Origin: an uncultured Opitutia bacterium
Lineage (GTDB): Bacteria > Verrucomicrobiota > Verrucomicrobiia > Opitutales > UBA953
DNA length: 41,472 nucleotides
Reading direction: 5' to 3'
Assembly: GCA_903925205.1 (NCBI GenBank)
Contig: CAIYEN010000036.1
Location: 1 to 41,472 of the forward strand
Shown here: one piece after another, positions 2,456 through 41,472 of the stretch
Layout: each line of letters starts with the position of its first letter
Position numbering within the stretch: position 1 is the first letter of the stretch
Position numbers and translations under genes: made by a program
The notes under the pieces: generated by a model
The model's input: the letters and a program-made list of their open reading frames with translations, nothing else
What the model was told of the DNA's origin: nothing
Database searches by the model: none

Positions 2456-2462
2456 CGCGTTC

Positions 2463-17938: not shown

Positions 17939-18477
17939 TCGACTACCAGTCAGCCGCCGACCAGATTGGCGTCGAGGTTGCCGCCGTGACGGCCATTGCC
18001 GAGGTGGAGAGCAGCGGCCAGGGCTTCCGGGACGGGATGCCAATCATTCGGCTTGAGGCCCACTGGTTCGGCAAGCTCACCGGCTACCAGTTCAACGACA
18101 GCCACCCGCATATTTCCTGCCGTGCATGGACGCCTGCGCTCGCCGCCCGCAACCAGGGCGAGGCGTGGGTGCAGTTCGACGAGGCCGCGTCGCTGGATGA
18201 GGGCGCGGCCATCCAGTCGACGAGCTGGGGCCCGTTCCAAATCATGGGTTTTCACTGGCAGGCGCTGGGCTACGAGAGCCCGCAGGCGATGCGCGAGGCG
18301 ATGGGCACCGACGAGGGCCAGCTCGACGCCTTCGTGCGCTTCGTGAAGGCCGACGCGGTGCTGGTCGACGCCGTGCGCCGCAAGGACTGGCACGCCTTCG
18401 CCGCCCGCTACAACGGGCTGGGGCAGGTCGATCGCTACGCCGGCCTGATGGCTGCGGCCTACGAAAGGAACGCCTGA
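17935..18477 (+). CDS. Endolysin (N-acetylmuramidase family)
   Basis: The 180-aa protein matches the phage N-acetylmuramidase (DUF3380) family: AVTAIAEVESSGQGF with catalytic Glu25 in the VESSG motif, then MPIIRLEAHWFGKLTG and SWGPFQIMGFHWQALGYESP, ending in KDWHAFAARYNGLGQVDRYA. It hydrolyses peptidoglycan glycan strands. It has no signal peptide, so it needs the holin encoded next. It overlaps the upstream membrane protein by 4 bp and the holin ATG by 1 bp, a compact lysis cassette. Confidence 0.9.
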   Translation: MIDYQSAADQIGVEVAAVTAIAEVESSGQGFRDGMPIIRLEAHWFGKLTGYQFNDSHPHISCRAWTPALAARNQGEAWVQFDEAASLDEGAAIQSTSWGPFQIMGFHWQALGYESPQAMREAMGTDEGQLDAFVRFVKADAVLVDAVRRKDWHAFAARYNGLGQVDRYAGLMAAAYERNA

Positions 18478-19037
18478 TGCCCCTCATCCCCCTGCTGCTC
18501 GGCCTGGCGCCGACCGTCGCGTCCTGGATCATGGGCGACAAGACCGGCGCCGCCGTCGGCAAGATCACCGGCATCGCGCAGGACATCCTTGGCACGTCGG
18601 ACGCTGCCGGCATCGAGCGCGCAATCTCTGCCGACCCGAACCTCGCGCTGCAGTTCAAGATGGCCGTGCTTCAGGCGGAAGCCGACGCCCGGAACCACGA
18701 AGCCGAGATGAACCGGCAGGCGCTGGATGAACTGAACGCCCGCATCGCCGACGTGGCCAGCGCCCGCAGCCAGACCGTCGAACTCGCCAAGGCCGGATCC
18801 CCGATCGCCTGGGGCTCGCCGATCGTGTCCGTGCTGGCCATCGTCGTGTTCGCCGGCTTCGTGTGGATGCTGTTCAAGCAGAGCGTCCCGGACGGCATGA
18901 AGGAGGCGCTCTTGCTCCTCGGCGGCAGCGCGGCCACCGGCTACGGCATGGTCCTGTCCTACTGGCTCGGCTCGTCCAGCGGCTCTGCGGCGAAGACGGC
19001 GGCGCTTGAGAAAGCCGCCACGGGGAGGGGCTCCTGA
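18477..19037 (+). CDS. Holin (GTA-type 3TM holin)
   Basis: The 186-aa protein has a hydrophobic N-terminus (PLIPLLLGLAPTVASWIMGD), a long helical charged middle (ALQFKMAVLQAEADARNHEA, EMNRQALDELNAR), then two hydrophobic helices (PIVSVLAIVVFAGFVWMLF and LLLLGGSAATGYGMVLSYWL). This is the architecture of the 3TM holin family first described in gene transfer agents of alphaproteobacteria. It permeabilises the inner membrane to release the endolysin. Adjacent to the endolysin. Confidence 0.85.
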   Translation: MPLIPLLLGLAPTVASWIMGDKTGAAVGKITGIAQDILGTSDAAGIERAISADPNLALQFKMAVLQAEADARNHEAEMNRQALDELNARIADVASARSQTVELAKAGSPIAWGSPIVSVLAIVVFAGFVWMLFKQSVPDGMKEALLLLGGSAATGYGMVLSYWLGSSSGSAAKTAALEKAATGRGS

Positions 19038-25181: not shown

Positions 25182-27484
25182 TGGCAATGATCCGCTCGTA
25201 CAACCAGCCCGCCGTCGAGGCGCGGGGCATCCCCGGTGCCGCGGTTCCGATGGCCGCCCCGGTCGGGGCTTTCGGCAACCCGGCGCAGGCGATGGGCGAC
25301 GCGAACGTCCTTGTGCAGGCAGGCGCCCAGCTCGGCCAGGCCGCGCAGAGCATCGACCAGATCCTCGAGCGCGAGCGCGCGATCGCCGATGAAACCGTCG
25401 TGCAGGAGCAGGGGCAGGCCTACCAGTCCGAGCGCCGGAAGCTGCTCTACACGAACCCGGATGCCTTCTACTCGCTGAAGGGCGAAGCCGCGATCAAGGC
25501 CATGGAACCGACCATGAAGCGGCTGGACGAGCTGAAGCAGAACTACCTCGCCAACACGAACAACGACCGCCAGCGCCGGGAGCTTAACAAGCGTCTGGGC
25601 TTCTTTACGGCCGAGGCTGAGGACGCCATGGGCCGCTATGTCGGCCAGCAGTCCCTCGTCTGGAAGGACTCGGTCGCCAAGGGCCAGGTCCGCAACGCGC
25701 TGGACGAGGCCGCGGTCTCTTACAACGACCCGGCCAATGTCACGCTGCACCTTAAGGGCGCGGCGCAGATTGAATACGACCGGGTAATCAAGAACGGCGG
25801 ATCCCCGGAGGAGGCCACGGCAATGGCGCGCTCCGTCACCAGCAACGGCTACAAGAGCGTGATCCAGCTCATGGCACTAAAAGACCCGGCCGCGGCGCAG
25901 CGTTTTTTTGAAGCCAACCGCGACAAGTTCGATGCCGCGGACCTGGTGGCAATCGAGGGTCAAATTCAGACAATCAGAACGAGCATCACGGCCCAGGCGC
26001 AGGCGACGGCAATGCTGAGTGGCCTGCCGGAGACCGAGCAAGCGAAGAAGGGCACCCAGCAGAGCCTGCAGTTCTGGACATCTGACGGGTACACACAGAA
26101 GGTCTCGGCTGGCATTACCGCCGGCTTCCTGCGCGAAAGCCAGTTCTCTCCGGGCGCGGTCAACCCGCGCGACGGTAGGGATGGGTCCGACAGCATCAAC
26201 ATTGGACAGTGGAATCAGGCCCGCGCCACGGCTTTTAAAGATTATGCCCGCAAGAACGGCCTTGACCCCAACGACATGGCGACCGGACTCAAGTACGCGA
26301 AGGCCGAAATCGACGGCGAGATTCCCTATTCAATCTCGGGGCTCAGTCCCGACTTCAAAGCGCGGCTGCAGAACGCCAAGACGGAGAAGGAAGCAGCCGA
26401 CATCATGACGCGCGGCTACTTCCGCCCAAAATACACCGAGGGCGAGAGCGCGCATCGGCAGAACTCAGCCTCACAGATCCTCGCCAAGTATGGCGACCCG
26501 CTACGCGATGCCGTCAATGATGCCACGGGAAGTGCCCCGTCGGCGCCCGCTGGAAATGACCAGCCGAAGAACGGCCCGCAGTACGTCGACACCCGCAAGA
26601 TGCTGCTGGACGCCGACGCGGCTTACGACTTGGCGACTCGCCGCAACATGGAAATCAACGCCACCAATGAGCCCCAGCGCCGGGCAACGCAGGCGCAGCT
26701 TGAGATGAACCTTGCCATGCAGAAACGTCAAATTGAGATGACGAAGCTGCAGCTCGACATCAACGTCGACAAGTGGATGCAGACCGGAGGCCCGAACGGC
26801 ACAGCAGCAACTACTCGCCCGCCGCCGGAAATCTGGAATCAGCTTCACTACGAGAAGCAGAAGTCGATCGACGCGACCCTGGTACACAATGCCAAGGGAA
26901 CCGACGCCGTCACGGATCAGCAGGCTTGGTACGAATTGCAAAGGGGATTGACGAGCGCTGATCCGAAGGTGCGCGAGGAGTACGCCAACAAGCCCCTGTG
27001 GGAATACAAGGCAAAGCTCTCCAATCAGGACTTTCAGGAAATCGCGAAGATGCAAGGCGCGGCCCGAAAAGGCGACCCCGACAAGAACCTGACGCACGTC
27101 CGAAACATCAACCAGATGGTCGACGACACTTTGCTGAAGCTGGGTGTCGACACGACACCCAAGCCAGGCGCGACCGATGCAACGAAGGCCCTGCAGTTCC
27201 GCCGTTTGGCGCAAGACAAGATCACAGCTCTGGAGGTTGAAACAGGCAAGAAGTCGACGCCGGAGCAGCAGCAAAAAATCATCGACAGTTTGGCGATCAA
27301 CGTTGTGACCAAGCCCGGCATCCTCTGGGACAGCACGAAGAGCCGCTACGAGATGACGATCAAGGACGTGCCGGACGCTGAGAAGTCCAAGATCACCGAC
27401 GCATTGAAGCGCGGCGGTATCCCGGTCACTGACGAGACGATCATCGACCTGTTCGCCCGCAAGAACGCGAAGGCCCCGAAATGA
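25181..27484 (+). CDS. Internal virion protein with lysozyme-like domain (gp15-like)
   Basis: The 767-aa protein is largely helical. Residues ~305-425 resemble the phage tail lysozyme (Phage_lysozyme2) family: AGITAGFLRESQFSPGAVNP with a probable catalytic Glu319 in LRES, then SINIGQWNQARATAFKDYAR and SEHRQNSA-like helices. In T7 the ejected peptidoglycan-cutting activity resides in gp16; here it appears in this protein instead. It probably opens the cell wall for DNA entry. The stop overlaps the giant gene's ATG. A run of seven T occurs at about 25902. Confidence 0.8.
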   Translation: MAMIRSYNQPAVEARGIPGAAVPMAAPVGAFGNPAQAMGDANVLVQAGAQLGQAAQSIDQILERERAIADETVVQEQGQAYQSERRKLLYTNPDAFYSLKGEAAIKAMEPTMKRLDELKQNYLANTNNDRQRRELNKRLGFFTAEAEDAMGRYVGQQSLVWKDSVAKGQVRNALDEAAVSYNDPANVTLHLKGAAQIEYDRVIKNGGSPEEATAMARSVTSNGYKSVIQLMALKDPAAAQRFFEANRDKFDAADLVAIEGQIQTIRTSITAQAQATAMLSGLPETEQAKKGTQQSLQFWTSDGYTQKVSAGITAGFLRESQFSPGAVNPRDGRDGSDSINIGQWNQARATAFKDYARKNGLDPNDMATGLKYAKAEIDGEIPYSISGLSPDFKARLQNAKTEKEAADIMTRGYFRPKYTEGESAHRQNSASQILAKYGDPLRDAVNDATGSAPSAPAGNDQPKNGPQYVDTRKMLLDADAAYDLATRRNMEINATNEPQRRATQAQLEMNLAMQKRQIEMTKLQLDINVDKWMQTGGPNGTAATTRPPPEIWNQLHYEKQKSIDATLVHNAKGTDAVTDQQAWYELQRGLTSADPKVREEYANKPLWEYKAKLSNQDFQEIAKMQGAARKGDPDKNLTHVRNINQMVDDTLLKLGVDTTPKPGATDATKALQFRRLAQDKITALEVETGKKSTPEQQQKIIDSLAINVVTKPGILWDSTKSRYEMTIKDVPDAEKSKITDALKRGGIPVTDETIIDLFARKNAKAPK

Positions 27485-30400
27485 CCGACATCAGCATGGG
27501 TATGGACGAGGGGCCGGACGTTCAGGTCGCCGAAGCGCCCGTGCCCAGTCCGCTTGCCAAGCAGCCTGCTGGAAAGAACGAGTACGACGACCTGGTCGCG
27601 CAGGCGCCGCAGGTAACGACCGCGCCGCCGGCCGGCGACTATGACGCCCTGGTAGTCGACCTGAAGAAGGCGCGCGACCAACGCCTGCGTGGCACCTTGG
27701 TCGGCGCCCAGCAGTCGACGCCAGACGCTGCGGCCAAGGCGGTCGACCTCGCGAAGAAGACCGGCGTGCCGGCCGACATTGTCGAGCGCAACCTCGACAA
27801 GGTCGACGGCGACCACAAGCTGAACGAATACGACGCCATCCTCAAGAAGTCGCCGAAGCTGTCGTTGTGGCTGCTCGCCGACCAGATCAACGCCAAAGTG
27901 GCGAAGGACGATTTCGAGAGCTTGTCGTTCCTCGAGCATACGATCAACGAGGCCTTCTGGCGGCCCTACTACAGCGGCCGGGCAGAGGCCCAGGAAAAGA
28001 ACATCAACCAATCCGTTCAGCTTGGCGCCGACCTCGAGGCAGCGCTGGCACGACAGGCATCCGGCGAGACTCTGTCAGCCTACGATGAGGGCCTGGTCAA
28101 GGACGAGGCCGCAATCCGCGACGTCGTGCGTCAGTCCATCATAGACGCCGGCACCGAGCGCACCCGCCGCCAGGAGCAGGCCGCGGCGCTGCCGCAAAGG
28201 CCGAACGTTATCGAGATGCAGAAGGCAGGCAAGGCGGGCGACTGGGAGGCCTGGTGGAAGGCCTTCGACAAGGACAAGCTGGGTGCCTTTTACACGGTCG
28301 CCCTACAGTCCATGTACACCCTGCCGGCGCAGTTGGTTGGCGGCGCGATCGCCGGTCCAGGTGGTGCCGGCGCGATGTCTTTCGGCTTCGAGTATTGGGG
28401 CGCCGTCATGGACGCCCTTGAGGAAAGCGGCGTCGACATCAACGACCCAACGCAGTTGACAAAGGCCTTCGCCGATCCTGCCAAGATGGCGAAGGTGAAG
28501 GAGCAGGCGACGATCAAGGCCGGCACGATCGCGACCTTGGACGCGGTAAGTTTCGGCGTGGCCAGCAAGTTCCTCGGCATCGGCAAGCGCATGGTCACGC
28601 GCACGGCCACAAACATTCCAGCGCAGGTTGCTTTGCAGGGCGCGCTTGGCGGCGCAGGCGAGGCGGGCGGCTCTTACCTTGCCGGCATGAAGGTCGACCC
28701 GCACGCGGTCATGGCCGAGATCATGGGCGAGGGTTTCGGCTCTCCCGTCGAGGTCGCGACGGCGCGGTGGCGTGAGGCTCGCCAGGCCGACATGACGGCA
28801 AAGCAGTGGGAGACCTTTCAGGCCCTGCCGCCGCTACAGCAGCAGGCCGAAGGCATGGCCATGTCGATCGACAAGCTGGTCGCGATCGCCAACGACACGA
28901 AGCTGGCCACAAGCTCGCCGTCGAAGCTGCAGGAGTTCATCGCCAGCGTCTCCGGTCAGGATGCCACGGTCTACATCCCGGCCGAGGCGGTGATGACCTT
29001 CATGCAGGACATGACGGGACTGCAGGCCGAGCAGTTCGCCGACCGGCTGGGCATCAGCGACCAGTTGGCCCGCATCGCCGCCACCAACGAAGACTTGGCT
29101 ATTCCGCTCGCCCGCTACATCACGGGCGCGAGCGAAGCGCACGCTGCCTGGCGCGAGCAGATCCGCACCGAAGTCGACGGCTTCTCCATCAAGCAGGCGC
29201 AGGAGTATGAGAAGTCCAAGGCCACCGAGCTGAAGGAACTGCAGGACCGCTTTGAAGAGCAGATCGCGGCCGGCATCGTGGCCGACCCGCAGACCATCGT
29301 GTACCAGCAGGTGCTGGCGATGGCGAAGGCCAATGGCTACACGAACGAGGTCGCCGCCCAGCACGCCGCGATCTACGCCAGTCGCTACGCGTCGCGCGCG
29401 GCCCGCAACCCGGAACGCTACGCCGACGCCCTGGACGCCTTCCAGCAGGCCGGTACCGGCAAGGGCATGACTATCCAGACCGTGCTGCCGGACGGCACGC
29501 GCGCCATGGGGCCGGACGTCTTCGACACGCTGCTGGACAGCATCCGGTCGGGCAAGGACCCGATCGTGCCGCCGGCTCACTTCGCGCACCTTGAGGCGCG
29601 GAAGGAGGCGCAGAAGGCGGCCCTCGAGCCGGTCCTTGGCCCGGAGCCGCCGCCCGCGCCGCCAACCCCCAAGCAGGTCGCCGAGGCCCGCAACAAGGCC
29701 GCGCTGGAGGCCTTCAAGGCACAGCGCCAGGAAGTGGCCGACGCTCTGACCAGCATGGGGTTGGACCCGGCCACCATGACCAACGCCCAGATCAGGGACG
29801 CCATCGCCAAGCAGGTGAAGGAGGGGACGACCTACCAGCAGGGGGCCAAGAAGTCCCTGTCCGACAGCCTGATCATGGTTGCCCAGCGCGGCGATCGCGT
29901 CACCGGCAATCGACTGCTTTTGTCTTCTGAGGAGAAGGCGGCCATTGAGGCCTCAGTCGGTCCGTCAGGCCTGTCTGCCAAAGAGATCACCACAACCGTT
30001 CGTAAGCACAAGTTGGCCCACCCCCCGGCCCAGGGATGGGAGCCTCTGGTGTTTCTGCGGGCGCAGCTCGATCCCAAGGGCAAGCCGGAGTTCATTTACC
30101 AGCAAGTCCCCTATGGCTTCATTAGGGACAGCAACAACAAAGAGATCGAGCCAACCGACAAGAGGTACGCGGCCCGCGTCGAGGCGATCGGCAGCGCCAT
30201 CTCTGAAGAGGTTCGTATCGTCTACCGGCGCGCAATTTCCGGCGACAAGAATGCACAGAACATTCTAGCCCAGGCCGGCTGGTACAAGGCGATGCGCGCT
30301 CGGCTGCGGCAGGAGTTCGGCGGCCTGGGCGACCTGTTTGCTGACGCCCTGGGCGCAACGTCTCCCAACACGCCCGTGCGCGGGAATTGGGAGAACGCGA

Positions 30401-33400
30401 TCGACGGCCTGCGCCGCGCGAGCCGAGGCGACTTCGATGAGCTGATGCCGAAGTGGGTGGCCTGGTCGGAGAATATCGATCGGCTCGAGATGGAACTGCG
30501 CGCCTTCGTGAACGAGAGGTTGGCGCAGCAAGATGATAACGGCAAGCCGAGGACAAAGAAGTCTGTCCTCTCTATGCCCGAATACCAGAAGCTGAGAAAA
30601 GAATTGTCTGCGGCGCGCGTTCTGCCGATGGATCTGATGCCGCGGAAGGAGAGCGGCGCGCAGTACGGGTTCAACGGCAAAAACCTGGTACGCGCCATGC
30701 TCGACCTGTGGCGCGTCATCAAGGACGCGGATGCAGACATCGGCCGCAGCGGGACGGCGCCGAAGGCTCTCAACTTTTCGGGCAACCTCATCGGCTTTCG
30801 AGAGAAGGCGACGATCGACGTTTGGGCCGCGCGCCTGCTGCAGCGCCTGGCTGGCAAGCGGCGCATCCCGAGCATGGCCGAGTCCACCGTGTCGGGCGAG
30901 ATGTTGTCGGACGCTTCCACTACCAAGCAGTTCGGCTTTGGCCAGGATGCATTTGCGCATGCTGTCAATCTCATCAAGTCCGACAGCGAGATGAAGCAGG
31001 ATGCCTCTCTCGCGAAGATCAATGACGATGACCTGCAAGCTGTCGTGTGGTTCATCGAGAAGGAGGTGTGGACGGTCAACAACTGGACGAGCGTCGCGGG
31101 CGAAGGCGGTTCGTTCGAGCTGGAGGCTAACCTTACTGGCACCGCGAAACAGGCGCGCGTGCGAGAGTTGCGGAAGATTATCGACAGCTCCCCGGCATCG
31201 GCGGACGTAGAGGCGGCTGCTAATGCCGACGCGGTTTCGGATAAGGTCGCAACGTGGACGGCTGAACACACGGCTGAGATTGAGGAACTGGGCAAGATCA
31301 ACGAGCGCCTTTCCTCCGAAGCGGACACGCTATCGAAGAAGGAACAATCGGACCTGAAGAAGCGCGCCGCAGAACTTGAGAAGGCAATCAAACTGCCGGC
31401 GGATCTCGCCAAAGAGATGCGCGCCGTGGAGAGCGCCCAGCGCCGGATTGACGAGCGCGCCGCCAACAAGGTACTGGCCCGTGCGGAACTGGCCACTCTT
31501 GAGCGGCCGGTCGATCGCTACGTCGGCGGCCTGTCCACGCAGATGTCGATCGACAACCAGGGCATGGACTACGTGCCGACCAACGCCGACATGGCCCGCC
31601 TGGGAGAGGCCATCCGGCTGGCGGTCTACGAGAACGACAAGAACGCGGACGTGCTGGCGTCCAAGGCTTTGTCGACCCAGGGGCGCTACGGCAGCGTGGA
31701 GCGGTCGCTCGATCTAGAGATCGTGACCCGCGAGGGATACGACCCTAGCACCGTCTGGGCCGAGATGCTGCGCCAGGCGCAGGCGGCCCGACAGGACTCG
31801 ACCTTCCTGTCGCGTGTCCTGCGAGAGCATGAGGCGATCGATTACACCAAGCACCGGCCGGGCGTTGAAATCTACTTTCGAGACGCCGCCGCTGCCGAGC
31901 AACTCGAGAAAATGCTCGAGGACCTGGCGAAGGAGGGCGTTTCGTTCCTGACGGTCACGGTCGACGGACGCCGCATGCCGGGATATGTGGCGGGCGCCAT
32001 GCCATCTGCAGTAGGTGTGCGACTTCAGTACATACCGGAGTTCGAGCAGAGGTACGGAAACGACGATTTTTCGGGGTTGGACGACGCCGCCATCGCGGCT
32101 AGAATGCAGGCCAAACGCGACGAACTGCAAGACGTCGCTTTCCGCGTTGCCGCCAATGTCCCTGGCGTCTCTTTTGCAGGCGTGTTCTGGCACGAGACCG
32201 AGGTGGCTTTCAGCCACCAGTATCAGGAGAAGATCGATGCCCTCGCAACTCGAAGACTTGAAGTCGAGTCTGGCACGCCTGGAGGCGAAGCCGGGTGGCG
32301 CGGACAATCCGTTGGTGCAGGGATTGAAGATGCAAATCGCCAGTCTCGAGAAGCCGCGAGCGGACAACCCGGTGAGCAATCGGGAGACGTACCAGGCGGG
32401 AATGCGGTCGGCTCCGACCAAGGGCTAGGCGAGACCTACCAGCAGGAAGCCCGCGGCGAGATCACCTTCGCCGACAACGTCACGACCATCAGCCTGTTCC
32501 AGGCGCGCGACCTGTCGACGCTCGCGCATGAGACCGGCCACCTGTGGCTGGCCGAACTGGAGAGTGACGCCAAGCATTCGGCGGCGTCCGACCGGTCGAA
32601 GGCCGACTGGCAGACGGTCCTGACCTTCCTCGGCAGCGACGGCTACATCACGCGCGAGCAGCACGAACTGTTCGCCCGCGCTTTCGAGACCTACCTGATG
32701 GAAGGCAAGGCCCCGACCGAGGGGCTGCGCGGTGTGTTCCGGTCGTTCAAGAACTGGCTGGTTGGCATCTACCGCAACCTCGCCAGGCTGCAGGCGCCGA
32801 TCTCGCCCGAGATGCGGGAAGTGTTCGATCGGCTGATCGCGACCGACGAGGAGATCGCCGCGGCCCGTGACGTGCAGGGCTTCAACCCGGTATTCACCGA
32901 CGCGAAGTCGGCCGGCATGACCGAGGTAGAGTTCGCCGCCTACACCAAGCGGGTGACGCAGGTCGTAGACGCGGCAGAGGAGGCGGTCCTCGAGAAAGTG
33001 ATGGCCACCATCCGCCGGCAGAAGACCAAGGAGGTCGCCGCCGAGAAGTCGAAGATCCGCAAGGAAGTCACCGAGGAGATGATGAAGGACCCCGGCAACG
33101 CGGCCCTTCACCTTCTGCGGACGGGGATGCTGTACGGCTCCCCGGTCACGCCTATGAGCCTGGTCGACGCCAAGCTGTCGCGCGCCGCGCTGGTTGCGAT
33201 TATTGGCGAGGAGGGGCTGAAGAACCTGCCGCGAGGCATCTACGCCAACGAGGGCATCGACCCCGACGACCTCGCGCAGGTCTTCGGGCTAGGCAACGGC
33301 CAGGAACTGGTCGAGCGGCTGATGCACATCCAGGCCGAGGCCGACGCCATGCGCGCTAAGGGCGACAACCGATCGCCGCTCAACGCCCGCATCGCCGAGG

Positions 33401-36195
33401 AGACCCAGCGCCGACTGATCGAGAGCCTCGGCGACCCGCTCAACGACGGCTCGATCGAGGCCGAGGCGATGGCCGCCATCCATTCCGACAAGCAGGGTGC
33501 GCTGCTGTCGAGCGAGTTGAAGGTGCTGGCCCGCAAGGCCGGGCAGTCCGGCACCATCACGCTGGACGACATCAAGGGATGGGCCGCAAACACGATCGGC
33601 GAGATGTCGGTCTACCAGGCCACACAGGCGGCGAAGTACCAGCGCGCCGAGCGCATGGCCGGGCAGGCCGTGCAGCGGGCGCTGATCAAAGGCGACTTCG
33701 TGGCGGCGTTCAAGGCGAAGCAGGACCAGCTAGTCAACTTCGCCCTGTACACCGAGGCCAAGAAGGCAGCGCAGGAGGCCGAGAGCATCCGCAAGCTGGC
33801 AGACCGCTACGCCTCGGCGGCGACCATCAAGTCGATGGACCAGGGCGCGCTGGAGCAGATCCACCAGTTGCTCGAGGACTACGACTTCAAGCGCCGCAGC
33901 GGCGCCCTGTTGGCTGAGCGCACGACCTTCAGCGCGTGGGCGGCCGAGCAGGCGGCGCAGGGCTTTGAGGTAATCGAGCCGCCCCGGTTGAAGGGCGCTC
34001 AGCGGGTTCACTTCAGCCAAATGAACATGGACGAGATCCGAGGGCTGGGCGACACGATCAAGCAGATCGCCCACATCGGCCGCTGGAAGCAGGAGATGGT
34101 CGACGGCGCCAAGAAGCGCGCCTTTGACGCGATCGTCGCCGAGGCTGTCGACACCGCCGGCAAGATTGATCAGCGCGGCGTCAGCCAGATGCGCCGCGGC
34201 ACGACCGCGTTGCAGGACAAGCTGGGCGACGTCGCATCGTGGTTTCGGTCGGTCGACGCCGCACTCCTGAAGATGGAGACCATCTTCGAGTGGCTCGACA
34301 ACGACAAGACGGGCAGGGGCGTATTCAGCCGGGTGGTCTTCCGGCGAATTGCCGACGCGCAGGTGAAAGAGCGCGACATGCAGAAGGACCTCGCCGGAAA
34401 GATGCAGGTGATCTACGACAAGGTCCCGGCCGCCCAGCGCAAAGACTGGTCGAAGCAGCACGTCATTACCGAGCTGGGGACCAAGCTGAACAAGTCGCAG
34501 ATGATCGCGGTCGCGCTGAACATCGGCAACGCCTCGAATCTGCAGAAGATGCTGTCCGGCGAAAAGTGGGACGAGGCCGCCGTCAGGCAGATGCTGAACC
34601 AGCACCTGACCAAGGAAGAGTGGCAGTTCGTTCAGGACACCTGGGACCTGATCAATTCCCTGTGGCCCGAGACCGAGGCGCTTGAGAAACGGGTCAACGG
34701 CGTGGCGCCGCCCAAGGTCGAGCCGACCCCGGTCGAGACCCCACACGGCACCCTGCGGGGCGGCTACTACCCGATGGCCTATGACAAGGCCGGCGACATC
34801 AAGGCCGACCGCATCGCGTCCAATAGCGCCGAGGGCCTGTTCGACCCGGAATACCGGAGGGCCTCGACCCGCGCCGGCTCGACCAACAAGCGCACCGAGG
34901 GCTTCAACGCCAAGGTGCTGCTGTCGCTCAATGTCATCGGCATGCACCTGAACGAGGTCGCCCACGACCTGGCCTTCCGCGAGGCCGTGATGGATGCCTT
35001 CAAGTTCCTGTCGAACGACAAGGTGCGCGAGGCAATCCGATCGGCGGTAGGCCCCGAATACGAGAAGCAGACGCAGGTCTGGCTGAAGGCGGTGGCCAAC
35101 GAGTGGGCGGTCGATCGGCGCGGCCTCGAGGGCATCGACAAGTTCCTGCAGACGGCTCGTGCCAACACGGCGATCGTCGGCATGGGCTTCCGCGTCAGCA
35201 CGATGTTCTCGCAGGTGGCGGGCTTCGCCAACTCCATCCAGCGCCTCGGCTCTGCCTCAATGATGGCCGGCATCCGCGACTTCTACAAGGACCCGGCCGG
35301 CATGGCGGCGTTCGTGCGCGAACGGTCGGGCGAGATGCGCCACCGGGCGAACGACCTCGAGCGCGACATCCGGCTAGCGCTGAAGCGCATGGAAGGCAAG
35401 GACGGCAACCTCGACGCGGTGCGCCGGTTTGCCTTTCGCGGTATTGCGCTGTTCGACGCCGCGGTCTCGCTGCCGACCTGGGTAGGCGCCTATAACCAGG
35501 GCCTGAAGCAGGGTATGACCGACGCCGAAGCCGTGGCCTACGGCGACAAGATGGTGCGCGACACTCAGGGCGCCGGATCGGTCAAGGACCTGTCCGCGTT
35601 CCAGCGCGGCGGCGAGGCCCTGAAGTTGCTGGGCATGTTCTATTCGTACTTCAACGTCTACTACAACCGGCAGCGCGGGCTGGTACGCGACGCACGGGAG
35701 GCCGACAGCTTCTCCGACTACATGGACGTGGTCGGCCAGGGGTTGTGGCTGATGGTCGTGCCGACGCTGCTGTCGGCCCTGCTCTCGGGACAGGGACCGG
35801 AGGACGACGAGGAGTGGTGGCTGTGGGCCACCCGCAACGTCGGCTTCGGCGTGTTCTCCGGTATCCCTTGGGCGCGCGACATCGGCGGCTCGCTGTCGAA
35901 CCAGATCGCCGGCAAGGGCTTCGGCGGCGCCAAGCTGTCTCCGGTGCAGGGCATTGGCGAGGGCATCCAGCACCTGACCACCGACGCCGCACACCTGGTA
36001 AACGGCGAGGAGACGTCGAAGTCTTCGATCAAGAACCTGTTCAACGTGGTTGGCTTGTTCACCGCGCTGCCGACCGGCCAGCTCGGCGCCACAACGCAGT
36101 TCGTTTGGGACGCCTTGGCCGAGGGCAGCCAGAACCCCGAGGGCCTGCTCGACTGGCTCAAGGGCCTGGCCTATGGGCCGAAGAAGCAGAAGTAG
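27481..36195 (+). CDS. Giant polyvalent internal virion protein (2904 aa)
   Basis: The last late gene, occupying T7 gp16's place. It has an N-terminal intrinsically disordered/helical part. Hydrophobic segments lie near residue 280-300 (YTLPAQLVGGAIAGPGGAGA). Around residues 900-1230 is a domain recurrent in polyvalent phage proteins (LGATSPNTPVRGNWENAIDG, ALNFSGNLIGFREKATIDVW, AARLLQRLAG). A zinc metallopeptidase motif HETGH sits at ~1683-1687 (LSTLAHETGHLWLAELE). Long helices follow to a C-terminal membrane-active region (GQGLWLMVVPTLLSALLSGQ) like the LPD38-type domain. It should be ejected into the host. DNA between about 30000 and 32430 is less GC-rich. The reading frame is locally poor at 32237-32428. 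Confidence 0.85.
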   Translation: MTDISMGMDEGPDVQVAEAPVPSPLAKQPAGKNEYDDLVAQAPQVTTAPPAGDYDALVVDLKKARDQRLRGTLVGAQQSTPDAAAKAVDLAKKTGVPADIVERNLDKVDGDHKLNEYDAILKKSPKLSLWLLADQINAKVAKDDFESLSFLEHTINEAFWRPYYSGRAEAQEKNINQSVQLGADLEAALARQASGETLSAYDEGLVKDEAAIRDVVRQSIIDAGTERTRRQEQAAALPQRPNVIEMQKAGKAGDWEAWWKAFDKDKLGAFYTVALQSMYTLPAQLVGGAIAGPGGAGAMSFGFEYWGAVMDALEESGVDINDPTQLTKAFADPAKMAKVKEQATIKAGTIATLDAVSFGVASKFLGIGKRMVTRTATNIPAQVALQGALGGAGEAGGSYLAGMKVDPHAVMAEIMGEGFGSPVEVATARWREARQADMTAKQWETFQALPPLQQQAEGMAMSIDKLVAIANDTKLATSSPSKLQEFIASVSGQDATVYIPAEAVMTFMQDMTGLQAEQFADRLGISDQLARIAATNEDLAIPLARYITGASEAHAAWREQIRTEVDGFSIKQAQEYEKSKATELKELQDRFEEQIAAGIVADPQTIVYQQVLAMAKANGYTNEVAAQHAAIYASRYASRAARNPERYADALDAFQQAGTGKGMTIQTVLPDGTRAMGPDVFDTLLDSIRSGKDPIVPPAHFAHLEARKEAQKAALEPVLGPEPPPAPPTPKQVAEARNKAALEAFKAQRQEVADALTSMGLDPATMTNAQIRDAIAKQVKEGTTYQQGAKKSLSDSLIMVAQRGDRVTGNRLLLSSEEKAAIEASVGPSGLSAKEITTTVRKHKLAHPPAQGWEPLVFLRAQLDPKGKPEFIYQQVPYGFIRDSNNKEIEPTDKRYAARVEAIGSAISEEVRIVYRRAISGDKNAQNILAQAGWYKAMRARLRQEFGGLGDLFADALGATSPNTPVRGNWENAIDGLRRASRGDFDELMPKWVAWSENIDRLEMELRAFVNERLAQQDDNGKPRTKKSVLSMPEYQKLRKELSAARVLPMDLMPRKESGAQYGFNGKNLVRAMLDLWRVIKDADADIGRSGTAPKALNFSGNLIGFREKATIDVWAARLLQRLAGKRRIPSMAESTVSGEMLSDASTTKQFGFGQDAFAHAVNLIKSDSEMKQDASLAKINDDDLQAVVWFIEKEVWTVNNWTSVAGEGGSFELEANLTGTAKQARVRELRKIIDSSPASADVEAAANADAVSDKVATWTAEHTAEIEELGKINERLSSEADTLSKKEQSDLKKRAAELEKAIKLPADLAKEMRAVESAQRRIDERAANKVLARAELATLERPVDRYVGGLSTQMSIDNQGMDYVPTNADMARLGEAIRLAVYENDKNADVLASKALSTQGRYGSVERSLDLEIVTREGYDPSTVWAEMLRQAQAARQDSTFLSRVLREHEAIDYTKHRPGVEIYFRDAAAAEQLEKMLEDLAKEGVSFLTVTVDGRRMPGYVAGAMPSAVGVRLQYIPEFEQRYGNDDFSGLDDAAIAARMQAKRDELQDVAFRVAANVPGVSFAGVFWHETEVAFSHQYQEKIDALATRRLEVESGTPGGEAGWRGQSVGAGIEDANRQSREAASGQPGEQSGDVPGGNAVGSDQGLGETYQQEARGEITFADNVTTISLFQARDLSTLAHETGHLWLAELESDAKHSAASDRSKADWQTVLTFLGSDGYITREQHELFARAFETYLMEGKAPTEGLRGVFRSFKNWLVGIYRNLARLQAPISPEMREVFDRLIATDEEIAAARDVQGFNPVFTDAKSAGMTEVEFAAYTKRVTQVVDAAEEAVLEKVMATIRRQKTKEVAAEKSKIRKEVTEEMMKDPGNAALHLLRTGMLYGSPVTPMSLVDAKLSRAALVAIIGEEGLKNLPRGIYANEGIDPDDLAQVFGLGNGQELVERLMHIQAEADAMRAKGDNRSPLNARIAEETQRRLIESLGDPLNDGSIEAEAMAAIHSDKQGALLSSELKVLARKAGQSGTITLDDIKGWAANTIGEMSVYQATQAAKYQRAERMAGQAVQRALIKGDFVAAFKAKQDQLVNFALYTEAKKAAQEAESIRKLADRYASAATIKSMDQGALEQIHQLLEDYDFKRRSGALLAERTTFSAWAAEQAAQGFEVIEPPRLKGAQRVHFSQMNMDEIRGLGDTIKQIAHIGRWKQEMVDGAKKRAFDAIVAEAVDTAGKIDQRGVSQMRRGTTALQDKLGDVASWFRSVDAALLKMETIFEWLDNDKTGRGVFSRVVFRRIADAQVKERDMQKDLAGKMQVIYDKVPAAQRKDWSKQHVITELGTKLNKSQMIAVALNIGNASNLQKMLSGEKWDEAAVRQMLNQHLTKEEWQFVQDTWDLINSLWPETEALEKRVNGVAPPKVEPTPVETPHGTLRGGYYPMAYDKAGDIKADRIASNSAEGLFDPEYRRASTRAGSTNKRTEGFNAKVLLSLNVIGMHLNEVAHDLAFREAVMDAFKFLSNDKVREAIRSAVGPEYEKQTQVWLKAVANEWAVDRRGLEGIDKFLQTARANTAIVGMGFRVSTMFSQVAGFANSIQRLGSASMMAGIRDFYKDPAGMAAFVRERSGEMRHRANDLERDIRLALKRMEGKDGNLDAVRRFAFRGIALFDAAVSLPTWVGAYNQGLKQGMTDAEAVAYGDKMVRDTQGAGSVKDLSAFQRGGEALKLLGMFYSYFNVYYNRQRGLVRDAREADSFSDYMDVVGQGLWLMVVPTLLSALLSGQGPEDDEEWWLWATRNVGFGVFSGIPWARDIGGSLSNQIAGKGFGGAKLSPVQGIGEGIQHLTTDAAHLVNGEETSKSSIKNLFNVVGLFTALPTGQLGATTQFVWDALAEGSQNPEGLLDWLKGLAYGPKKQK
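32237..32428 (+). CDS. Embedded ORF (63 aa) in +1 frame inside giant gene
   Basis: AGGAG lies seven bases before ATG 32237. The product MPSQLEDLKSSLARLEAKPG, GADNPLVQGLKMQIASLEKP, RADNPVSNRETYQAGMRSAP, TKG is a convincing small coiled-coil protein. By-eye third-position GC is clearly higher in this frame than in the giant ORF's frame over the same bases, which here reads compositionally odd sequence (ESGTPGGEAGWRGQSVGAGI). It may be a real overlapping gene, or mark an ancestral gene boundary where two proteins were fused. Confidence 0.55.
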   Translation: MPSQLEDLKSSLARLEAKPGGADNPLVQGLKMQIASLEKPRADNPVSNRETYQAGMRSAPTKG

Positions 36196-36222
36196 GCAAC
36201 GCCGTCAGGTGAGCCCAGATGT

Positions 36223-36248
36223 AGGACCGTGATTCACGTTCTGGTCCT
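36223..36248 (+). terminator. Hairpin after the late operon
   Basis: AGGACC (36223-36228) pairs with GGTCCT (36243-36248), with an inner CGTGA-T-TCACG palindrome competing, followed by TCCTG. It lies 28 bp after the giant gene's stop. The U-tract is poor, so intrinsic termination is uncertain; position supports it. Confidence 0.35.
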
Positions 36249-36302: not shown

Positions 36303-36331
36303 TTGCTGGAAACGATCCGGCAATATTCTTA

Positions 36332-36359
36332 GTATCGCATAATATATATTGGGACTAGA
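36332..36359 (+). other. attP: dif-like XerCD site, candidate phage attachment site
   Basis: An AT-rich island reads GTATCGCATAA-TATATA-TTGGGACTAGA. Against E. coli dif (GGTGCGCATAA-TGTATA-TTATGTTAAAT) the core CGCATAATATATATT differs at one of 15 positions. The left arm fits a XerC site, the centre is six bases, and the right (XerD) arm is degenerate, as in many phage sites that exploit Xer. It lies between the end of the late operon and the end of the leftward operon, the topological place of attP in lambda. No integrase gene is seen in the window. Confidence 0.55.
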
Positions 36360-36398
36360 AGCTCAGGCAAAACAACAGTTTGTGGTTGCGCTGGAATT

Positions 36399-36788
36399 TC
36401 AGGAAACATTGCGAGACTTGATCGGCTTCTTGCCCGTGGGCGTCTTGCCGTTCATGTAGACCAACACTTCAGCGGCCGACTTGATGACGTGCCGCAGATC
36501 CATGCGCTGGCGATTTATACCACGTTGATGGTCCTGGGTCACGACCAGAGCCTCGACCAAGGCCGCCTGCAGGGCCTCTATCTGGCGCCGCGTGTGGATC
36601 GGGTCGGAGAAGGTGAGTTCAAGCCGGACCGGCGCGCAGATCGCATCCACGGCCTCGGCGGACAGGCGCACGTCGCCGGGCTCGCGCGTGGTGGTGGTCG
36701 GGTCGAAGTTCTTGGCGCGGGCCATGAATGCCTCTCTCTGGCGCTGGAAATCGACAATCGCCTGTTCGGTGACGGTCATGTCGCTCAT
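36399..36788 (-). CDS. Hypothetical early-left protein (129 aa)
   Basis: The start at 36788 overlaps the upstream stop (ATGA); the track's longer version begins in the neighbour. The product starts MSDMTVTEQAIVDFQRQREA, FMARAKNFDP and has a middle VRLSAEAVDAICAPVRLELT with a helical end. No recognised motif. It is the last gene of the leftward operon, next to the convergent intergenic region with the dif-like site; in lambda this is where int and xis would be, but nothing in the sequence suggests a recombinase. Confidence 0.65.
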   Translation of the reverse strand: MSDMTVTEQAIVDFQRQREAFMARAKNFDPTTTTREPGDVRLSAEAVDAICAPVRLELTFSDPIHTRRQIEALQAALVEALVVTQDHQRGINRQRMDLRHVIKSAAEVLVYMNGKTPTGKKPIKSRNVS

Positions 36789-37087
36789 CCCTCCGTCTCC
36801 TTCGGTGCGTTTACGCTCTCGGCCCAATCGGCCCACGCCATGAGCGCCGCCGAAAGGGCTCGCGCCTCGCGCACATCGGTCAAGCTGAACTCCAGTTCGT
36901 AATGGTGCAGATTTTCCCGAGACCCTTGCCTCATCACCACGACCATTGATCCATCGGCAAATCCGGGATGAGGCCCGACTTCGATCATCGTCTCGTTCTC
37001 GGTGTAGGCGAGATCAACACGCGCACCCGCGACTGTTCTGTCGGGGTCGCGGAAAAGCGCATCTATGATGCGGCCAACGGATGTCAT
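36785..37087 (-). CDS. Hypothetical protein (100 aa)
   Basis: It begins MTSVGRIIDALFRDPDRTVA and has alternating strands (ARVDLAYTENETMIEVGPHP, MVVVMRQGSRENLHHYELEF, SLTDVREARALSAALMAWAD), so a small mixed alpha/beta fold. ATGA overlaps at both ends place it firmly in the leftward operon. No family recognised. Confidence 0.65.
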   Translation of the reverse strand: MTSVGRIIDALFRDPDRTVAGARVDLAYTENETMIEVGPHPGFADGSMVVVMRQGSRENLHHYELEFSLTDVREARALSAALMAWADWAESVNAPKETEG

Positions 37088-37263: not shown

Positions 37264-37568
37264 GCGTTGTATCCTGGTGGCGGTTTGCGCCATGCGGAGG
37301 GCTTCTTCGCCCCGTACAACTTCGCTTTGACGCGCTTCGCCTTCGACCACGCCGCCGCGTCCGCTTTGGTCTTGGTCGCGTGGCAGTCCTTATGGGCAGG
37401 CCGCATGTTGGCCGCGTCGTCCGCGCCATCGAGCGCCAAGGGCCGCACATGCTCCACGTCCCAAGGCTGGCCGACCTGAATACGCAACTCGCACAGGTGG
37501 CAGCGGCCAGAAGCGCTCTCAAAAATTCTCAGCCGCTGAAGCGGAGATAAGGTCCGTCTCTTAACCAT
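37239..37568 (-). CDS. HNH endonuclease
   Basis: ATG 37568 gives 109 aa: MVKRRTLSPLQRLRIFESAS, GRCHLCELRIQVGQPWDVEH, VRPLALDGADDAANMRPAHK, DCHATKTKADA. The zinc-binding CxxC, the catalytic His in WDVEHVRPL, the Asn in ANMRPAHKDCH and final His form a standard HNH nuclease. Such enzymes assist packaging or degrade host DNA. Its start region duplicates the motif R-R-x-L-S-P-L-Q-R found at the beginning of the ORF upstream, see the inserted endonuclease entry. It overlaps the preceding stop by 8 bp. Confidence 0.85.
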   Translation of the reverse strand: MVKRRTLSPLQRLRIFESASGRCHLCELRIQVGQPWDVEHVRPLALDGADDAANMRPAHKDCHATKTKADAAAWSKAKRVKAKLYGAKKPSAWRKPPPGYNAWTRRIER

Positions 37569-38166
37569 GACGCCGCCATTGCTTGCCGGGAAGAAGCGCC
37601 TCCTCCAGTGGCCATCCTTTCGCGATCCTGTTCCGGAATGTCCCAGGCTTGAGGTCAAGTCCTCGGCATAGCTCGACCGAAGTCGTACCTCTCACGTAGT
37701 TGTTGCTCCGGTTCCGCGATTGCTCAATGTTTGTGGCCCAACGGCAATTCCCCGGCTCATAAGGACCGTTGTTGTTGATCCGATCTATTGAATGATCGGC
37801 AGACGGCCTGGTGCCCATATCTGCGGCGAATGCATCAATATCGTGCCACCGCTCGCAAACCACGATCCCGCGCCCGCCATATCGCGGATAGTCCTTGCTG
37901 CGCGAGTTGTGGCAACGATCCAGCATCCCGGCGTGGATGTTGTAAAGGGGGTGTTTTGTTATGTTCCTCGGCCTGCCGTCGATCAGGCAGCCGCACGATT
38001 TTCTGTTTCCCGCGCGCAGATCACCCCCTTGCGCAACCAAGAGGTTTCCGCAGTCGCATTGGCACTCGAAATGAGCGCCCGGCTTGTCGGGCACGTAGAC
38101 AAACCGCAAGACGGTTAATGCCCCGAACTTCCGCCCGGTTTCGTCCTTGGCCCGCTTGTCGTTCAT
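37561..38166 (-). CDS. Homing-type HNH endonuclease, probably inserted
   Basis: From ATG 38166 (GAGAG upstream) the 201-aa product reads MNDKRAKDETGRKFGALTVL, then a zinc-finger-like CQCDCGN...KSCGCL, and the homing-endonuclease signature LYNIHAGMLDRCHNSRSKDY, PRYGGRGIVVCERWHDIDAF, HSIDRINNNGPYEPGNCRWA. The C-terminus has a short helix-turn-helix-like segment for DNA recognition (GTTSVELCRGLDLKPGTFRN). The 16 codons ahead of this ATG encode a second copy of the HNH enzyme's start. The gene therefore seems to have inserted at the beginning of the HNH gene. Confidence 0.8.
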   Translation of the reverse strand: MNDKRAKDETGRKFGALTVLRFVYVPDKPGAHFECQCDCGNLLVAQGGDLRAGNRKSCGCLIDGRPRNITKHPLYNIHAGMLDRCHNSRSKDYPRYGGRGIVVCERWHDIDAFAADMGTRPSADHSIDRINNNGPYEPGNCRWATNIEQSRNRSNNYVRGTTSVELCRGLDLKPGTFRNRIAKGWPLEEALLPGKQWRRHG

Positions 38167-38214
38167 CGACAGTCTCTCGCGTTGTAATGGGGAGAGGGAG
38201 CGGCGGGTGGTCAT
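38167..38214 (-). pseudogene. Remnant of HNH gene start (16 codons)
   Basis: ATG 38214 overlaps the ninB-like stop (ATGA), as expected for the next gene of the operon, and encodes MTTRRSLSPLQRERLS. This matches the beginning of the HNH enzyme downstream (KRRTLSPLQRLRIF), though the DNA has diverged. The frame continues into the homing-type endonuclease. It may be read as an N-terminal extension, but a leftover 5' end of the interrupted HNH gene is likelier. Confidence 0.45.
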
Positions 38215-38612
38215 GCTTCAATCTTCTTGAACGTGACGCCGTGTTGATGGCCGAACACGAACAGCCACTCGTTCAGCGCGGCGCATTGCTTCGTGGTCAG
38301 GTCGCTCGTGTGCGGGAGCAGGAGGGCGAATTGCAGCCCGTCCAGGCTCTCGACAAGCTCCGGCGTCTCGCCCGTCTCGATCAGCCATTGCAAAGTAATC
38401 CGGCGCTTCCACCACACGGCGTCGTGCAGTTCGCCCGTTTCCGGCGGCCACGCCAGTTGGTCCGCGATGTCGTTCAGCGCCGCGTGAAGGAGGCGGTTTT
38501 GCTTGTGGGTCCGGCTTTGATGCGGGCGCGGGCTTCCCTTCCGGCTTCCACCAACCGGACGCGGTCCGCCTCGCTCAGAGCCGTAATCAGGGATTTGTGC
38601 TGTCGCCACCAT
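38211..38612 (-). CDS. NinB-like recombination protein, N-terminus uncertain
   Basis: Residues from about 33 on (SRTHKQNRLLHAALNDIADQ, LAWPPETGELHDAVWWKRRI, LLPHTSDLTTKQCAALNEWL, FVFGHQHGV) match the NinB family (lambda Orf), which loads recombinases at SSB-coated DNA and works with annealing proteins. The only in-frame ATG (38612) has no ribosome binding site and its first ~30 residues read like out-of-frame sequence of the neighbour. The true start or a frameshift is unresolved. Adjacent to the ERF gene, a logical partner. Confidence 0.65.
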   Translation of the reverse strand: MVATAQIPDYGSERGGPRPVGGSRKGSPRPHQSRTHKQNRLLHAALNDIADQLAWPPETGELHDAVWWKRRITLQWLIETGETPELVESLDGLQFALLLPHTSDLTTKQCAALNEWLFVFGHQHGVTFKKIEA

Positions 38613-38683
38613 GTGTCCAACTCATCGTCAGAGGTTGCCTGTGCAAGCGCCCAAATCAGGACGATAGGCAACAAGTCACTCAA
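38474..38683 (-). CDS. Small helical protein downstream of ERF (69 aa)
   Basis: The start is TTG 38683, overlapping the ERF stop with GAGG close upstream. The product begins MSDLLPIVLIWALAQATSDD, ELDTWWRQHKSLITALSEAD, RVRLVEAGREARARIK. Helices with 'lieaW..n...I..L.e.dr..l..a...r' occur as short units linked to phage annealing or exonuclease genes. It overlaps the NinB-like ORF by 139 bp, and its last ~14 residues (AGPTSKTASFTRR) look out of frame, so an indel may have separated one ancestral reading frame. Confidence 0.55.
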   Translation of the reverse strand: MSDLLPIVLIWALAQATSDDELDTWWRQHKSLITALSEADRVRLVEAGREARARIKAGPTSKTASFTRR

Positions 38684-39587
38684 GGTCCTCGCCGGTCACG
38701 TTCTGGTAGCACTGCTTGACGCGCAGATACTGTCCGGGGGAGTTGTCGGAAAGCCACTGCAGCGGCGACTTCGACTTTCGAGGCGGCACCGTCTGGGCGA
38801 CGCGACGCCATTCCTTTGCGCTTTCGGTGTTGCCCATATTGATCGTCTGAATAGCCCCGTCCGCGAACTCCTTAGCCCTCTCAGCAGCCTTGGCGCTGTA
38901 GTTGGACAGCAGGCGGCCATCTTCCCCGCGCGGCCCTGTGGAGAGCCGTTCCACGTCGTCGTTGTGGTCGGCCCCGTTGCCGTCGTCGTCCACGTCGCCA
39001 ACAGCCAGATTGAATATCAGCTTGAGTAGATACCTCTGGCCGTAAGAGGCAGCCGCTCCCGTGGCATGTGTCCTGGTCATCACGTCGCCGCCCTTGGCTC
39101 CCTTGCCATCTGCGGGCATGTCGATTTTGTAGTCCTGCCTGTGGCCGCCTCTATGCGACACGACGCAGAGCAAACGAACCTCTGCCGGAGTGGGGGCGTC
39201 GCCTGTGTTGAAGCTCAGGGCGAAGCCGTGCCGGGCGTAGATTGGCCGCACGGCATGATCGAGCGCCGCATAGGTCGCGTATTTGCTCCGGGTCTGGCTG
39301 TTGTTCGCGTCCGGGCTGATCGCCCGCATGGCTTCCTGGGCATCGGCCATAGCGGCGTCGAACTCGTCCCGCGCCTGCTTGGCGTCGCGGCGCTCCTTCA
39401 TCTGTAGAAGGCGGTCCATCTTGTCGATATCGACGCGGGGATCTGAAGCCGCGCGCTCGATCATCATGAGAAACGGGTCGCCTCCGGTCGGGATGGCGGG
39501 CGGCTGGTGCTGGGCAACGGCTGGTGCCGCTCCCTGCGGCATGGCATCGACCGGCGTAAAGTCGATCTCTTGAATAACGCTGTCCAT
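38676..39587 (-). CDS. erf: ERF-family single-strand annealing protein
   Basis: The 303-aa protein has the ERF core in residues ~70-190: SQTRSKYATYAALDHAVRPI, YARHGFALSFNTGDAPTPAE, VSHRGGHRQDYKIDMPADGK, GDVMTRTHATGAAASYGQRY, LLKLIFNLAVGDVDDDGNGA. ERF anneals complementary strands and promotes circularisation and recombination of phage DNA. N-terminal 45 residues are Pro/Ala-rich; the C-terminus (SPLQWLSDNSPGQYLRVKQC) is a separate small region. Leftward early operon, as expected for recombination genes. Confidence 0.9.
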   Translation of the reverse strand: MDSVIQEIDFTPVDAMPQGAAPAVAQHQPPAIPTGGDPFLMMIERAASDPRVDIDKMDRLLQMKERRDAKQARDEFDAAMADAQEAMRAISPDANNSQTRSKYATYAALDHAVRPIYARHGFALSFNTGDAPTPAEVRLLCVVSHRGGHRQDYKIDMPADGKGAKGGDVMTRTHATGAAASYGQRYLLKLIFNLAVGDVDDDGNGADHNDDVERLSTGPRGEDGRLLSNYSAKAAERAKEFADGAIQTINMGNTESAKEWRRVAQTVPPRKSKSPLQWLSDNSPGQYLRVKQCYQNVTGEDLE

Positions 39588-40380: not shown

Positions 40381-40649
40381 GACGCAGCCTCGCAGGCTGC
40401 GTGATATCCGCCGGTCGGGCTGTCATCGCCCAAATGCTCCTGCGCCCACTCCGAGAGCATCGCCTGCATGGTGTCATCGAGCGCGTGCAGCGTGGCCTTG
40501 GCCGATACGAACTGCACCTCGGCAGGATCGGCGGGGTCGATGCGCGTGGCGCGAGCGCCCGCCGTGTAGGTGTAGGTGATCTCGACCTGGATCGAGTCAG
40601 GCTGCAGCCCGAAGGGGCAGTACGCCGTCATGGTGTGCTTGGTTGTCAT
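40377..40649 (-). CDS. Small hypothetical protein (90 aa), complete copy
   Basis: Starting at ATG 40649 (overlapping the 87-aa gene's stop; the GTG three bases earlier is less likely), it reads MTTKHTMTAYCPFGLQPDSI, QVEITYTYTAGARATRIDPA, ..., MLSEWAQEHLGDDSPTGGYH. First half beta, second half helical. Its first 26 codons are repeated at 1-79, where the contig begins. Function unknown. Confidence 0.65.
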   Translation of the reverse strand: MTTKHTMTAYCPFGLQPDSIQVEITYTYTAGARATRIDPADPAEVQFVSAKATLHALDDTMQAMLSEWAQEHLGDDSPTGGYHAACEAAS

Positions 40650-40912
40650 CACGCGGCCTCGTCCATCAAGCCAAGGTCAGCGGCCTCGATGGCGCGCGGC
40701 TCTGCGTGGTTGATCGCGTTCTCCAGCGCGATCAGGAGGGCGCAGGCGTCGGCCATGTAGAGCAGGATATTGAACTCGCCGCTTTGCACGCTGTCGCCGA
40801 GCCGGATGTTGATGAACGCTTGGCCGTTTCCGTTCTCCAAGTCCTGCGGAAACCCGGAGACATGGATGCCGGGGCGGTGGGCGCGCTTAACGCTGAATGT
40901 CTTGATGTCCAT
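40649..40912 (-). CDS. Small unknown phage protein, right variant (87 aa)
   Basis: Homologue of 79-330 with the same ribosome binding site (GGAGAGGG) and the same C-terminal 35 residues or so. The central part differs (FPQDLENGNGQAFINIRLGD, SVQSGEFN against FPADGHQSFINIKFGNTGQD, GEFQ) and is four residues longer. Both variants are intact. It shares the operon position behind the 161-aa gene. Function unknown. Confidence 0.75.
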   Translation of the reverse strand: MDIKTFSVKRAHRPGIHVSGFPQDLENGNGQAFINIRLGDSVQSGEFNILLYMADACALLIALENAINHAEPRAIEAADLGLMDEAA

Positions 40913-40928
40913 TTCCCTCTCCTTGTGA

Positions 40929-41414
40929 TCAGGCGGCGATTGAGTTGCTGAAAGCCGGCGCATCGATCGCCACCCGTGCGGCGCGATACCGATCGACCTG
41001 CCGCACGAACCCGGCCCACAACTCGCGGCGCTTGGTGAGCCAGTCGGCCCGGCGCTTCGCGGTCCACAGATCCCACGGCAGGCAGTCCCAAGCCGCGCGG
41101 CGGTTGCTCTCGTGCGTCTGCAGGTGCGAGAGCCAGTTGAGCGCGGCGGCGGCGTGGCATTCGTGCGGGAACTGGCCGATCTCGACGCAGGCCGGCTCGG
41201 CCCAGCGGTCGAAGCTGAAGCCCAGCAGGCGCTCGACGCGGGCGAAGTCGGCGGCGCGGTGGGCGACCTCGGCGGTGCAAACGGCAGCGGCCCAGCCACG
41301 GTCGCTGCACCCGTTGAGGTCGTGGCGGGGCAGCGGCTGGCGCTCGCGGCGGATCAGCTCGGCGGTGGTGAGGTGATCGGTGTCGCGGCGGGTGAGGGTG
41401 AGTGCGTCGGGCAT
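40929..41414 (-). CDS. Unknown early-left protein, right variant (161 aa)
   Basis: Homologue of 348-833, same length, about 83 percent identical by eye. The first 29 residues are identical; residues 30-43 read RHDLNGCSDRGWAA where the left variant has SHAIEGFNYRQWAV. Other changes are spread (for example FSFDRW against YDFDRW, DCLPWDLW against DCLPFDLW) and mostly conservative. It keeps the promoter and leader of the left copy, so both are expected to be expressed in the same way. Function unknown. Confidence 0.8.
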   Translation of the reverse strand: MPDALTLTRRDTDHLTTAELIRRERQPLPRHDLNGCSDRGWAAAVCTAEVAHRAADFARVERLLGFSFDRWAEPACVEIGQFPHECHAAAALNWLSHLQTHESNRRAAWDCLPWDLWTAKRRADWLTKRRELWAGFVRQVDRYRAARVAIDAPAFSNSIAA

Positions 41415-41443
41415 TGGTGGGTGGCTCCCTGTTCGGTGAAGCC

Positions 41444-41472
41444 AAGTTAATCAACCATTAACCCACAGTCAA
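41444..41472 (-). promoter_or_regulatory. Left promoter PL, right copy, cut at window end
   Basis: TTGACT (41472-41467) and TAACTT (41449-41444) with 17-bp spacing, identical to 863-891. OL1 (41446-41462) is complete; OL2 is cut by the window end. Confidence 0.65.

Follow-up and report, generated by a model that had tools for sequence, protein, structure and literature searches.

The DNA analysed here (the window) is the whole of contig C36, 41,472 bp, of the 2.47-Mb metagenome-assembled genome (MAG) G000, and it encodes a tailed phage in which a conserved Xer-type site very probably stands in for an integrase. The site is a dif-like 28-mer, GTATCGCATAATATATATTGGGACTAGA, at positions 36332-36359 of the plus strand. 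We regard it as the likely attachment site of a tailed phage of the IMEX type (integrative mobile element exploiting Xer) that would integrate at dif by means of XerCD, because it matches dif sites of the host order, has a conserved neighbour gene, and stands where relatives lacking the site have an integrase. An attachment role for this Xer-type site is well supported by these comparisons; actual integration at the chromosomal dif we infer.

The contig closes on itself imperfectly. Positions 40571-41472 match positions 1-891 at 88% identity, with both edges of the overlap near-identical and its middle divergent. This fits an imperfect circular closure, such that the contig would hold the whole map of about 40.6 kb, and the divergent middle fits two population variants in an assembly from a mixed population. 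Self-closure of this kind would equally be expected of phage DNA that is replicating or packaged. The portal (PHROG 332), capsid (PHROG 212) and tail proteins make this an epsilon15/phiV10-type podovirus. Its late operon runs rightward and ends at 36195 with the gene for a 2904-residue protein (27481-36195, plus strand; PHROG 9880, Pfam LPD22), which is convergent with the early operon; the latter runs leftward and ends at 36399, and the dif-like site lies between the two. The early operon includes, all on the minus strand, an HNH endonuclease (37561-38214; PHROG 374), a NinB/Orf recombination mediator (38211-38612; Pfam PF05772) and an Erf-like annealing protein (38676-39587; PHROG 155, Pfam ERF). 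A CI/LexA-type repressor with HTH and Peptidase_S24 domains (1672-2379, minus strand; Pfam and PHROG matches) and a divergent Cro/YdaS-like regulator (2427-2732, plus strand; Pfam YdaS_toxin above cut-off) are encoded, and the phage is therefore taken to be temperate. A Mom-like DNA modification protein (PHROG 1384) is encoded at 9079-9534, directly before the terminase. The muramidase and its neighbours (17615-19037) share 79-87% identity with genes at 50540-51932 of the relative G006, where they sit after the last large late gene; on this comparison a lysis module has been transferred in mosaic fashion. Neither the Rfam search nor the tRNA search of the window gave a match.

A six-frame search of the window found no tyrosine integrase (PF00589), and scans with Pfam, PHROG and NCBIfam, whose coverage of the ORFs varied by library, found no serine recombinase, transposase or partition family. 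The original prediction, which described a podovirus-like phage with a CI/LexA-type repressor but no integrase, transposase or partition gene, is thus borne out on each of these counts. It had also placed a dif-like site in the convergent intergenic region, with a core one position away from Escherichia coli dif and a degenerate right arm. Sequence and coordinates both proved correct, and the site can be given exactly as the 28-mer above.

This 28-mer reads GTATCGCATAA-TATATA-TTGGGACTAGA. The XerC-type arm GTATCGCATAA (36332-36342, plus strand) agrees at 9 of 11 positions with the XerC arm of the dif of genome G075, and its segment ATCGCATAA is kept across the related phages described below, apart from one C-to-T change in G412. 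The central hexamer TATATA (36343-36348, plus strand) is identical in all five phages; it agrees at 6/6 positions with the commonest dif centre of the order and at 5/6 with the TATACA of the MAG genus. The XerD-type arm TTGGGACTAGA (36349-36359, plus strand) is degenerate, with only 6-7 of 11 positions matching the host arms TTATGTCTAAT/TTATGTCTAGT. In all five phages the AT at positions 3-4 of the host XerD arm is replaced and the TTATG of that arm is lost.

A degenerate search of the MAG found its dif, ATTTCGCACAATATACATTATGTCTAAT, on contig C102. Of 54 same-genus genomes, 46 have exactly one copy of the 18-base core of this sequence; a reversed control pattern gave eight matches over all 95 genomes. 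A candidate dif in contig C88 was dropped as coding-like DNA at a contig edge. The usual form across the order is NNNNCGCACAATATATATTATGTCTAAT, and G075 has ATTTCGCATAATATATATTATGTCTAGT. A six-frame search of the whole MAG with PF00589 returned two matches only, both outside the window contig. Contig C150 encodes XerD, above the NCBIfam cut-off, and contig C219 has XerC as its best NCBIfam match, below the cut-off of that model. Since the centre is TATACA in the MAG genus and TATATA in the phage, the phage may in fact belong to a different host within the order.

With a single mismatch to E. coli dif, the core CGCATAATATATATT is the sole match in the window at up to three mismatches; shuffled sequences gave a mean of 0.07 matches at that level. 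Over its full length the site matches E. coli dif at 17 of 28 positions, below its match to dif sites of the host order. The original prediction had proposed alignment with the dif of the predicted host genus; here the site scores 19/28 against the MAG dif and 22/28 against that of G075, and no unrelated position in the window does better than 15-16/28. Among 5000 Markov sequences with the composition of the island, none attained 22/28 to the G075 dif and 7 attained 19/28 to the MAG dif. A matrix built from 26 order-level dif sites scores the phage site at 25.5 bits and the next independent position in the window at -3.8. Other loci, with 1.57 million positions scored, contain none that attains the score of the site.

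The neighbour of the site is a small gene, the last of the leftward early operon, whose 3' end lies 40 bp from it. The listed ORF, for a protein of 145 residues, spans 36399-36836 on the minus strand, with a likely ATG start at 36788 (gene 36399-36788). Homologues that are 56-62% identical were found in four other tailed-phage contigs, namely G387 (L151; 62%), G386 (L161; 56%), G412 and G413. In four of four, a dif-like site lies about 70 bp beyond the gene in the same orientation: TCATCGCATAATATATATTTGGTCTAAA (G387), TGATCGCATAATATATATTGTGACTAGA (G386), TGATCGTATAATATATATTGTGACTAGA (G412) and TCATCGCATAATATATATTGTGGTAAGC (G413). This co-occurrence is partly by design, since G386 and G387 were recovered from IMG/VR by searching for the site itself, as its core followed by a loosely defined right arm; an alignment of three protein sequences, used alone, returned these two together with G412 and G413. 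A single-sequence search with the 145-residue protein gave no homologue. In the five-phage alignment 18 of the 28 site columns are invariant, 16 of them within the first 19, compared with 67 of 252 flanking columns, and the window shares 52-55% intergenic identity with the other four. Because G386 and G412 are siblings (92% identical in the island), the five phages count as only four lineages. Eighteen IMG/VR stretches contain the exact 17-mer ATCGCATAATATATATT, and among these only the three contigs with the adjacent gene are GC-rich; an exact 20-mer of the window site had no match in viral contigs.

A second intergenic element is conserved about 110 bp to the XerC side of the site. It includes AGATGTAG (36217-36224, plus strand), within which AGATGT is invariant in the five-phage alignment, and further short blocks are conserved nearby. 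The element is possibly an accessory sequence, a site for an accessory protein, or a terminator. The 145-residue protein itself is predicted, with modest confidence, to be helical. It matches no family and no solved fold; a fold search returned one uncharacterised protein of an uncultured member of the Caudovirales, 50% identical, and no homologue was found in 72,556 plasmids. XafT, the activator associated with TLCphi, acts on XerD and is encoded by a Vibrio cholerae IMEX (PMC9765430), and we speculate, by analogy, that the 145-residue protein is a candidate Xer accessory factor with an XafT-like role.

No tyrosine integrase was found in G386, G387, G412 or G413, although this absence is weak evidence for G386, G387 and G413, which are fragments. 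G412 spans 39.3 kb and has no PF00589 match. Its portal and capsid families differ from those of the window, and what the two have in common is mainly the terminase (31%), a CI-like gene and some small genes of the early region; the gene-plus-site pair therefore occurs in different structural backgrounds. Six relatives that do have an integrase (G384, G390, G409, G001, G003 and G006) have no dif-like site, and their integrase lies in the gap that separates the late from the early operon, or else at the contig end equivalent to this gap. In G384, whose capsid is 97% identical to that of the window phage, a 364-residue integrase is convergent with the last late gene. The gene-plus-site cassette thus appears, from these gene maps, to take the place of the integrase at an equivalent junction of late and early genes. 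Seven viral contigs share the last late gene of the window and have different neighbouring DNA without a dif-like site; as a refutation these were set aside once three of them proved to carry an integrase. The original prediction would have been weakened by related phages without this island: the integrase-less relatives keep it, whereas the integrase-bearing ones are without it.

On the attachment-site reading, circular phage DNA would, after infection, pair with the dif of the chromosome, and the XerC and XerD of the host would bind the site and exchange strands within the 6-bp centre, possibly with the help of the 145-residue protein. One junction would join the phage XerC arm to the host XerD arm, giving a working dif with dimer resolution retained, and the other would join the host XerC arm to the degenerate phage XerD arm; the predicted prophage borders are a hybrid GTATCGCATAATATATATTATGTCTAAT-like site and a site made of an XerC arm plus TTGGGACTAGA. 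Excision driven by FtsK when the cell divides would be held back by the weak XerD arm, in line with a proposal made for the gonococcal island. The centre mismatch with the dif of the G000 genus, on the XerD side, would favour an XerC-led route or a different host within the order. A bolder proposal, which we offer tentatively and would not yet favour, is that a portable cassette (the gene for the helical protein plus a site with a weak XerD arm) replaces the integrase in several differing tailed phages, probably alphaproteobacterial, and that the protein drives integration and excision by host XerCD at dif without FtsK.

Across 79 genomes of the family, the last late gene has no homologue outside the MAG itself that would mark an integrated copy, and same-genus genomes have no second, hybrid dif site. 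Portal homologues in 373 genomes of the order are distant only (best 28% identity), with no credible dif nearby; AT-rich matches in contigs of G335 and G323 were judged to be chance. The dif of the MAG is intact, uninterrupted and free of a prophage, and since the contig also closes on itself, the phage DNA in the MAG is not at dif. Of the original prediction that the phage integrates at dif by host XerCD, the attachment-type Xer site is therefore supported, but no prophage at dif was found.

The main alternative, which we consider unlikely, is a prophage maintained as a circular plasmid, with the site serving as a cer/psi-like resolution site at which XerC and XerD turn multimers into monomers. 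Accessory sequences of cer and psi lie on the XerC side of the site, and the conserved AGATGT element would be such a sequence. The missing integrase and the closure of the contig as a circle suit a plasmid, and many tailed plasmid prophages exist, often with Xer-family recombinases of their own (PMC8026635). However, no partition or plasmid replication family emerged from the Pfam, PHROG and NCBIfam scans, in which some small ORFs stayed unassigned, the adjacent protein is absent from the plasmids searched, and the site occupies the position of the relatives' integrase. The loss of TTATG from the XerD arm in five of five phages is also unlike plasmid Xer sites, which to our knowledge retain a canonical XerD arm. 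We give little credence to the idea that the phage is non-integrating and that host XerCD acts on the site only in the lytic cycle, for example in monomerising circles or in coupling replication to division. Unrelated tailed-phage contigs do have dif-type sites just upstream of terminase, some with a full XerD arm, but a temperate phage is indicated by the presence of a CI repressor and a Cro-like gene, and here the site replaces an integrase at the same map position.

Still less probable is a conserved AT-rich transcription element, a terminator or promoter that merely resembles dif. A gap between convergent genes would suit a terminator, and the region has one weak promoter-like and one weak terminator-like match; yet conservation spans exactly the XerC arm, the centre and the first bases of the XerD arm, transcription from a promoter at this place would run antisense into the genes on either side, and in the 17-mer scan the GC-rich carriers are only those contigs with the adjacent gene. 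The degenerate XerD arm could be read as a sign of chance resemblance, or of a degraded att site in a phage that has lost its integrase. We strongly disfavour both, as the site is kept in four lineages at about 50% intergenic identity and its level of match to the G075 dif was never reached in the Markov trials.

Sites of dif type also occur in tailed-phage contigs unrelated to the window phage: L147 (about 637-664), L158 (about 60-87), L154 (about 222-251), L162 (about 1494-1521) and L278 (about 3049-3076). These contigs are of low or middling GC and have terminase or portal genes nearby. L278 is related to the Methylophilales phage MEP301, in which no dif-like site is present. The sites in these contigs lie just upstream of the terminase region and may represent a second, independent use of Xer by tailed phages.

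Filamentous phages, some tailless phages and islands are documented users of host XerCD at dif. The tailed prophages in a survey of marine Vibrio depended on integrases of their own (PMC11630473), and a limited full-text literature search found no report of a tailed phage using host XerCD at dif. The IMEX principle is known; what would be new, judging from the limited set of papers searched, is its use by a tailed dsDNA phage as a cassette with a conserved partner gene. If the attachment-site reading is true, methods keyed to integrases would miss such prophages or misread them as lytic, large prophages would have to be looked for in dif regions, and the product of the neighbour gene would be a testable new Xer control factor.

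CTXphi and VGJphi are filamentous, integrase-less phages that use XerCD at dif, and CTXphi integrates as folded single-stranded DNA. The window phage likewise has no integrase, but the XerD arm of CTXphi and VGJphi is not degenerate in such a manner. In both TLCphi attP and difGGI of the gonococcal genetic island, the XerC arm and centre are good and the XerD arm diverges (PMC5357621, PMC4246890), and TLCphi, a satellite phage of Vibrio cholerae, integrates by an XerD-first route without FtsK (PMC4246890, PMC5357621). Like TLCphi, which relies on host XerC/XerD, the window phage has kept the XerC arm and centre, has a diverged XerD arm, and lacks an integrase; unlike TLCphi, a small satellite of a filamentous phage, it is a tailed dsDNA phage of about 40 kb. 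It resembles the gonococcal island as a large dsDNA element in which the XerD arm has diverged and the XerC arm and centre are good, whereas that island encodes a secretion system and its integration is demonstrated, which for the window phage we infer. Jorvik has no predicted integrase and dif-like attP and attB in an alphaproteobacterium (PMC10589892). Jorvik and its kin are membrane-containing, tailless phages of 8.9 kb, unlike the tailed window phage, and in both cases the use of XerCD is deduced. Against epsilon15/phiV10-type records the capsid is 55-58% and the portal about 40% identical, with a similar order of late genes. The near epsilon15-like relatives G384 and G390 carry a tyrosine integrase, and the window phage has the dif-like cassette instead.
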